A program made the position numbers and the translations under genes. A DNA stretch of 64,000 nucleotides from Antedon mediterranea. Its lineage: Eukaryota; Echinodermata; Crinoidea; Comatulida; Antedonidae. Position 1 is the stretch's first letter; every line of letters starts with the position of its first letter. The DNA lies in contig NC_092675.1 in NCBI RefSeq assembly GCF_964355755.1, positions 19,172,912 through 19,236,911 on the forward strand, given 5' to 3'. Shown here in pieces: positions 22,101 to 25,100 of the stretch. The notes beneath the pieces were generated by a model that searched no databases, was not told the DNA's origin, and was given only the letters and a program-made list of their open reading frames with translations.

Positions 22101-25100
22101 CACGTCTCGAAGATGGTACCGTATAGCCGTATTTGGTAGCGCGGTTATTGATGTGTATGTGACGTTACATCCGGCCTTATGACGTCATTACAGCTTCTTT
22201 CGCTGTACCCTGAGTATTGCATATTCGTGCTTGTTTTTGCCTTTGGCAAATATCTATATATTATTCAATTCTTACCCCATACACTAAAGTTCTACCATAC
22301 TAAATTTTTACTCAACATATAATATATTCTTACCATATAACAAATTCTAATGCCATACTAAATTCTTAACACTCTGTATATATTAAATTCTTACCCCTTC
22401 CACTTCAGCCTTATCGTACCAAATATTGATATAGGGATGCTGTAGTGCATCATCCACTGATATGCGTAGTTCTGGATCTATCACAAGCATTTGACTGAGC
22501 AGATCACGCACGTGATTAGCTGAAAAATAACACACAAAAAAAGGCCATTGCATGCAATGTTCTTACCCCTTCAACTTCACTTGGATCGTACCATACATTG
22601 ATATAGGGGTGTTTTAGTGACTCATCTACTGAGATTCGCTGATTAGGGTCCACAACCAGCATTTTACATAGGAGATCTCTTGCTTGTTTTGCTGTAAAAT
22701 AAAAGTGCAGAGGAGAATACTATGTAAGCCACCATGCAAAAGCAAAGCAGAATGTGATTAAGCGTAAAGAAATAAAATCACCATAAGTAAAGTGACACCA
22801 AGAGAAGGATACTTTTAATTATACTTCATGACTACAAAATCAATAGAGCGTATCCATTGTATGCTCATGCTCACAAACCTAGCATTGTGATAGCTTCAGC
22901 GACAACACCATATTTGATCAGGTGGCTAGTTACAATGCTGATTTAATTGGTTTGCATAAATATTTATTTGTTATCTATTTCTTTTATAGTCTAGACACTG
23001 CAAAGTATAATTAAAATATCAAGAAGTATTATAGAACCAGAATATTATATTAATTAGGCAGGTAATTAGGTTGAAAGGCAGGGTCTAACTTTTTATCAAA
23101 TTTTATGCCACCTTAAATAGTCCCTTCTAGGCATATATAAACTCCAAAACTTAAAATTAAACATTGGAAGTTTGCACTTCATTTTTTTGTATACAAATTT
23201 ATTGGAAGATTTTGTAAAACTAAATTTTGATTTAAAATTACATTACAAATTTTGGTATTCTAAAATTTGGACCAATAAAACAAAAATTAGAGCTTGGTTC
23301 TACTACAAAATGGAACAGACAATTATATATAATTATGGTTTTATAGAGATATAGAATTATTAAAATTATTTTATTGTTTAAGTATTTATTTTTACTAGTC
23401 TGTGTCGTTTGGTCTTTAGCAAGTTTTTTTTCAGCTTTAAAATAAAGAACTAAAATAAAAAGTGCGTTTATAATGTAAATTTCTAACAAAAAAAATGAAT
23501 ACAGTATATACTTTGCAAAATATATTTACCAATGTAAAAATGAAATAAATAATATTTTATAATATGGAATGCAAAATTAATATTTTTAGTATAGCCATAA
23601 TAGCACTAAATACCACTATAATAATTTTGTAGGCCTAATGCTTAAAATATTAGCAGTGCATGAGGATTTTGGGAATGTTAATGTTTGTAAATAAACTAAA
23701 ATGTTCATAAAGAAAGCATGGCACATGTAAATAAAATCAAATCAACATTTGCTTGTAAACAAAAATATATAGCAGAATGCACCGATTGCGATTAAATTGT
23801 TCATCTTGTTTGTGCAGTAGTAATAAATGAATTTAGAAATTCATTTCAATAAACTCATCAGAACAATGAACTTCTGAAGAAACTGTTTGTATAAAAATGA
23901 ACAATGAAACTTTTACCATCAGTTTTTTTTATTACGATTGATAAATTCTAATTTCATCACAATGCACTCATGTAAAAATATGTAAATATTCTTTCTTATC
24001 TGCTGCCCTCTATTGTCCATTTGATTGAAAAAAATAAGGTGTGTTTTCAATCAGAACTTGATTAGTATACATGTATTGTAATATTCAATTCATATCATTT
24101 TGTACGCGATATTTAATTTTAATATGCCACAACAGTCTTATGTTAGATAGATACATGAATTATTAATATGATAAATATTGCCAATAATATGGTGATAATA
24201 ATGAGAATGATGGAAGAGGATGGTGACAACGATAATAAGGATATTTGGGGAAGATGATGATAAAGCTAATTTCTGTGACAACAAAATAAATTTATGACTT
24301 TGAAGGTAACGTTTATAACAATAGTATTGTACTTCAGTTATAAACACATCCCTGTTGATATTTATTACACATATCCCACCTATATATATAAATATACATA
24401 TGGAGGGCATATAAGGTCAAATTGAAATGTTCTCAAAACAGCAGTACAGTATGAGCAGAATTCTAAATGAAGAGATTCACATGATGGGTTGTTTATTGAA
24501 AATAAACAATAAAATGTTAGTAACCCCTTCACCTTACCTGTCAGTTTGTTAGGCTCCGATGTGCTGTCTTCTGGAAAGAGTTCATCAGGGAAGAGAACAT
24601 CAAACATGTGTCCAGCATAACGTGGTCGATTTTCTACATAGTTACGCACCGTTGGTTGTAACCGTTTCATAAACTGTTGCGACGGTGTACCTAATAATTC
24701 TATAATTTTATTCCATTGATCAATATCTAAACAAATTATAGTTAAAGGAATACATGTATTCATTTATTTTCGTATTATTTATTGAAGTGAAATAATAACA
24801 CCGTAAAAGATGAATTAAGTTGTCTCATAGAAAAGAAGGATACGATCTGTTCCTGGAAATAAGACTGCTCCCCTAATCATTTCTCCAAATATACAACCAA
24901 CAGACCACAGATCAACTGAAAATAAATATACCAACAAGTTGTTTATTACACAAACCAACAATAGTGTCTATGAGTGCCAGTTATCTGGATAAACAGACAA
25001 TAGCCTAAGTTATGATACAAAAAGAGAAAAGTTTTATTTATCATACATATGATACATACACTTTAAAAAAATTAAATGCAAAATAGGGGTTCTTGTCGGG

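Follow-up and report, generated by a model that had tools for sequence, protein, structure and literature searches.

A JNK gene with a doubled exon

The 64,000-nucleotide (nt) stretch of Antedon mediterranea DNA analysed here, the whole of which is meant by the window, carries on its minus strand a gene for the protein kinase JNK. One exon of the kinase domain is present in two tandem copies, 7a and 7b, and it is the splicing of this pair that concerns us. The gene is the only JNK locus found in the genome. Its exons were located with human JNK1 as the query and their boundaries were then read, which gave a 10-exon coding model and one additional exon copy, and the phases of all modelled exons join into one open frame. 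The TPY activation loop, which we take to be a mark of JNK, is present and the best PDB matches are MAPK8 and MAPK10.

27890-19028, minus strand: JNK gene
22567..22691, minus strand: exon 7a, 125 nt, start phase 1, end phase 0, matching JNK1 residues 291-332
22520..22566, minus strand: 47-nt gap between 7a and 7b with U2-type donor and acceptor, letters GTAAGAACATTGCATGC...TTATTTTTCAG
22395..22519, minus strand: exon 7b, 125 nt, phases as in 7a

These coordinates bear out exactly an earlier note on this DNA, made from the sequence alone, which had described two equal-length, in-phase copies 47 nt apart. The consensus acceptors and identical donors that it reported are likewise present: one acceptor ends in tttattttacag and the other in ttatttttcag, both copies have the donor GGG|GTAAGA, and all four splice sites of the pair are U2-type. 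As also claimed, 7a and 7b encode the same kinase segment, residues 304-345 of the spliced JNK protein, with 28 of the 42 residues identical when the split-codon alanine is counted.

Within the window each copy recovers the other by tblastn (E = 6e-18), and the same search gave no third copy, its next match being 16 residues on the opposite strand at 54581 (E 0.18). A DNA search of the 354-Mb assembly with the pair returned a single occurrence, and the sixth exon (beginning IDQW) joined to 7b gave three matches, all within the JNK gene. No tandem repeats were found in 22000-23000. Relatives of the pair were sought in prokaryote genome contigs and in viral contigs, where none of 97 and 25 pattern matches, respectively, was confirmed. 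The introns flanking the pair show too weak a likeness (shuffle p 0.038 and 0.128) to place the breakpoints of the duplication.

That the pair is an artefact of assembly or of collapsed haplotypes is scarcely credible. Allelic difference would fall far short of the 36 mismatches in 123 whole-codon bases, JNK was found at one locus and the surrounding JNK exons are single and in order. A split haplotype is ruled out by this 29% base difference together with the finding of the pair only once.

Divergence between the copies

The differences between 7a and 7b fall at codon positions 1, 2 and 3 in the numbers 10, 4 and 22, and the residue is kept in 27 of 41 whole codons. The NG86 method gives nonsynonymous (dN) and synonymous (dS) distances of 0.22 and 1.56 for the pair taken jointly. 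When 36 random substitutions were placed on 7a, 22% of the simulated exons were open at all and none of 20,000 was both open and equally similar in protein. This looks like purifying selection on the protein sequence, and the large synonymous distance indicates an old duplication. Both copies resemble known JNKs: the upstream exon with 7a has its best PDB match in MAPK8 (163 bits) and with 7b in MAPK10 (160 bits). Identity to human JNK1 is 32/42 for 7a and 29/42 for 7b, and to the corresponding stretch of JNK3 it is 32/41 and 33/41.

The alternative that only one of the two exons works, its partner being a relic or seldom used, might draw on 7b, which could be weak because its 47 nt upstream lack the branch-point motif YTNAY. 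Neither copy, however, appears degenerate. Despite the large synonymous distance between them, both have retained an open frame, splice sites and residues typical of JNK; a relic of such age would be expected to be broken, and the alternative is in our view improbable.

Spacing between the copies

Intron sizes in this genome were estimated from neighbouring exon matches in genes for dynein heavy chains (61), EEF2 (10) and myosins (8). The 79 estimates have a minimum of 96 nt and a median of 247 nt, so that the 47-nt gap is half of the smallest, about 96 nt; the other introns of JNK are all at least 117 nt. The earlier note had placed the gap at or below the usual minimum for animal introns, a claim that needed a genome-specific measure, which these estimates supply.

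Published work is cited here from excerpts of the papers named. The steric limit on the distance from 5′ splice site to branch point is given as near 50 nt (PMC7969005), and a limit of <50 nt is likewise applied in PMC5740500. Any branch point within the 47-nt gap falls below this limit by virtue of the length of the gap, and no YTNAY match is found in it. The spliceosome would thus be unable to join 7a to 7b, since a 5′ splice site and a branch point could not be engaged together across so short a gap. Human OGDH exons 4a and 4b provide a parallel, in which exclusion arises through too short a spacing and branch points lie 25-41 nt from the 5′ splice site (PMC7969005). In contrast to OGDH, the entire gap here is 47 nt and is without a YTNAY match. 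Exons of alpha-tropomyosin reportedly show the same spacing-type exclusion. Elsewhere in this genome a myosin gene, at L016 (G000:C1:19158600-19160600), carries two tandem exons for ...NPxxEAFGNAKTxRNDNSSRF with gtaagt donors at about 947-1222, probably a further case of alternative exons with very little sequence between them.

Outcome of each splice choice

The remaining exons of the coding model, against which each splice choice was computed, are as follows.

27712..27890, minus strand: exon 1 as modelled, with the ATG within
26461..26590, minus strand: exon 2
25707..25904, minus strand: exon 3
25282..25447, minus strand: exon 4, DLKPSN ... TPY activation loop
24844..24915, minus strand: fifth exon, 72 nt, VDLWSVGC...FPGTD, donor C|GTATCCTT
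24538..24726, minus strand: sixth exon, IDQW...NKLT, 189 nt, end phase 1, precedes 7a/7b
20552..20615, minus strand: exon 8, 64 nt, start phase 0
20134..20199, minus strand: exon 9, 66 nt
19028..19110, minus strand: exon 10, coding portion as far as the TAG stop

Either 7a alone or 7b alone yields an intact JNK of 415 residues with the same end point. With both copies the frame shifts and translation would end after 12 codons of 7b, at a stop 216 nt upstream of the last junction. When both are skipped, the shifted frame reaches a stop after the split codon and five further codons, 110 nt upstream of that junction. Joint inclusion and joint skipping are thus both unproductive, and the frame shifts that the earlier note predicted for each are borne out by the computed stops. 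If the gap is retained, 16 further codons are read before a stop is met where 7b begins. As a usual rule, an mRNA becomes a target for decay when its stop precedes the final exon junction by over about 50-55 nt, and the stops at 216 and 110 nt would make both the double-inclusion and the double-skipping transcripts decay targets.

Two further donor-like sites follow 7b, and use of either would bring in an in-frame TAA (GTA AGA ATT TAA after 7b).

22276..22334, minus strand: two GGTAAGA donor-like decoys at 22334 and 22276, 61 and 119 nt past the 7b donor

The heptamer GGTAAGA occurs six times on the minus strand of the 64 kb, four of these in 22567-22276 as the two true donors and the two decoys. 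The sequence GGGGTAAGAA has three occurrences, all in the region of the 7a/7b donors and decoys.

These stops, lying well upstream of the last junction, and the additional donor-like sites are what might be expected if the pair mainly sets the amount of JNK, with regulated double inclusion or skipping sending the mRNA to decay. Such control of amount leaves the protein-level selection on the copies unexplained, however, and double inclusion is sterically disfavoured; we consider it highly improbable as the main role of the pair.

Our analysis instead favours 7a and 7b as a functional mutually exclusive pair, which arose when the 125-nt exon encoding the end of the JNK kinase domain was duplicated in tandem long ago, a reading to which we give a probability of roughly 85% on the sequence evidence. 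In the proposed mechanism, transcripts with both copies or with neither would meet an early stop and each useful mRNA would carry one copy, as follows if joining of 7a to 7b is blocked and the other outcomes end in early stops. Frame, early stops and gap size all support the mutually exclusive splicing that the earlier note had predicted.

Relation to the vertebrate JNK switch

In vertebrates, competition between U12-type 5′ sites and U2-type 3′ sites makes the choice of exon 6a or 6b exclusive in MAPK8/9 (PMC8329584). For amphioxus JNK, alternative splicing mediated by Nova is described as occurring 'similarly to vertebrates' (PMC8586503); the excerpt does not name the exon, and we infer that it is the same as vertebrate 6a/6b. 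The crinoid gene offers a point of comparison at both positions. Its VDLWSVGC...FPGTD exon, which precedes the IDQW exon, presumably occupies the position of 6a/6b. This exon (24915-24844), two exons upstream of 7a/7b, is single in the window: tblastn found no second exon of its type there, the next match having E 0.69. The earlier note had held 7a/7b to be separate from vertebrate 6a/6b and the arrangement of the exons supports this.

24727..24843, minus strand: 117-nt intron after the 6a/6b-type exon, donor GTATCCTT, with branch-point-like TTCCTTTAAC a short way upstream of the following acceptor

By its consensus we assign the intron 24843-24727 to the U12 type. As in MAPK8/9, a U12-type donor thus follows this exon in the crinoid gene, but the vertebrate-type switch, with a duplicated exon before IDQW and a U12/U2 interlock, was not encountered in the window. 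The two systems share tandem C-lobe exons of the same kinase that are, or for 7a/7b are predicted to be, mutually exclusive. They differ in that the duplicated exon lies two exons further downstream here, and in the means of exclusion: MAPK8/9 has interlocked U12 and U2 sites, whereas the sites of 7a/7b are all U2-type and exclusion would rest on spacing and frame. The two locking mechanisms, U12/U2 incompatibility and spacing, could thus be compared within the same gene. Nova-type YCAY motifs number zero in the gap, zero in the 150 nt downstream and three in the 150 nt upstream of 7a.

Docking residues

The 14 positions at which 7a and 7b differ are, in JNK1 numbering, 292, 293, 294, 299, 300, 304, 307, 308, 314, 315, 317, 323, 327 and 328. 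Arg160 of the scaffold JIP1 contacts Glu367 and the backbone of Trp362 in JNK3 (PMC4573485). With the offset of 38 in the PDB match, JNK3 W362 and E367 correspond to JNK1 W324 and E329, both of which are encoded by the duplicated exon and are the same in 7a and 7b. Directly before E329, residues 327-328 are PS in 7a and KA in 7b, and the 7b lysine, two residues before the docking glutamate, would introduce a new positive charge that could alter the binding of scaffolds or activators. The neighbouring residues D326 and E331 are also, we assume, to be credited with a docking role.

Of the changed residues that the earlier note took to face substrates or scaffolds, P327-S328 can thus be placed beside the docking residue E329. 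That the 7a/7b choice retunes docking to the D-motifs of scaffolds such as JIP1 is a reasonable possibility, although we would not go as far as even odds. A 10-residue change between two forms of JNK1 has been reported to shift partner choice (PMC7617313). If docking is indeed retuned, the switch would change which scaffolds, activators and phosphatases JNK holds, and the choice of scaffold would become a splicing decision, tying a splicing switch directly to the docking site of a MAPK.

UGCAUG sites and Rbfox

The window has 25 TGCATG motifs on the sense strand of the JNK gene, and three of them (26432, 22738 and 22556) fall within the gene itself. Of these three, two flank 7a, for which the chance of at least two in the 147-nt space is about 0.0016, a post hoc figure.

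22556 (first base), minus strand: TGCATG inside the 7a-7b gap
22733..22738, minus strand: second TGCATG, starting 47 nt upstream of 7a

The genome has a gene matching the Rbfox RNA recognition motif (96% over 24 residues, 69% over 42). In FGFR2, where UGCAUG lies in the intron between exons 8 and 9, Fox represses the downstream exon and favours the upstream one (PMC2880598). In C. elegans egl-15, Fox-1/ASD-1 with SUP-12 represses exon 5B and favours 5A (PMC2880598). The layout of FGFR2, with UGCAUG between the paired exons, is the same as that of 7a/7b; in contrast to FGFR2, Rbfox regulation here is a prediction from the motif. The UGCAUG in the gap might let Rbfox favour 7a and hide 7b, a proposal that we make tentatively and with the odds somewhat against it.

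Weighing the reading of the pair

Several points tell against 7a/7b as a regulated, mutually exclusive switch that alters docking. The ratio of dN to dS describes the pair and not the constraint on each copy, and the comparison is within one species. The 96-nt minimum comes from an exon-match scorer that passes through stops and may merge very short introns, such that an intron of ~47 nt may occur elsewhere in the genome, and the gap of the tandem myosin exon pair is about 84 nt by eye. W324, E329, D326 and E331 are unchanged between the copies and any docking effect is possibly small. The TGCATG motif was noticed afterwards, and by the FGFR2 rule the site upstream of 7a would oppose 7a, so that Rbfox might act in either direction.

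Exons duplicated in tandem are familiar from other genes, and the position of this pair in JNK appears new within the literature surveyed. No title or abstract opening among the open-access papers surveyed on JNK exons, exon duplication and splicing in echinoderms and hemichordates dealt with this exon; subscription literature lies largely outside that scope and the evidence of novelty is weak. The excerpt of PMC3202601, a study of how the MAPK family evolved whose tree includes an echinoderm, has nothing on this exon. The idea of a possibly undescribed JNK switch, raised in the earlier note, stands within that scope and no further.

A broader proposal is that echinoderms and chordates independently gained an either-or exon in the C-lobe of JNK, in vertebrates (and probably amphioxus) before IDQW with a U12/U2 lock, and here in an echinoderm at the exon of the docking patch, where spacing would provide the lock and Rbfox the control. 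As a whole this is speculative and on balance doubtful. Were it correct, a second, separately evolved either-or exon in a genome where one JNK locus was found would allow one to ask whether alternative splicing does the work of gene duplication.

Other features of the window and genome

In the intron after 7b, at about 21820-21750 and 21535-21465 on the minus strand, are two tRNA-like stretches (CTCGAACC...GTTAAGCA...). Sequence on either side of them is repeated as well, and they may belong to a tRNA-derived short interspersed element. At 63049-63921 of the window, also on the minus strand, a 290-residue open frame contains HIDTNCVAWGTIGPRGGRLSVPNAG, which to us resembles the start of a ZU5 domain (UNC5-like).

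A search of the assembly for COX1 gave no mitochondrial match. A match to bindin covered 66 of 238 model positions with a score of 107 bits against a cut-off of 22, and has one stop within the stretch. Bindin being a mark of echinoderms, this match points to that group and away from the hemichordates, which the complete Hox set had at first suggested. Nineteen similar-scoring matches to one stretch of the myosin head (model about 342-408) are spread over about 5.5 Mb at G000:C3:19.6-25.1 Mb, and would be an expansion of a myosin gene or a piece of one. Two dynein heavy-chain genes, at G000:C1:2208666-2211317 and 2590790-2593453, have a near-identical exon pattern and spacing 382 kb apart and are likely a recent duplication. 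A single run on C2 (7.83-8.21 Mb) contains twelve Hox homeoboxes, which we take to be an ambulacrarian set made up of two Hox11/13 types, of which one is inverted, together with 11/13a, 9/10 and 8 to 1.
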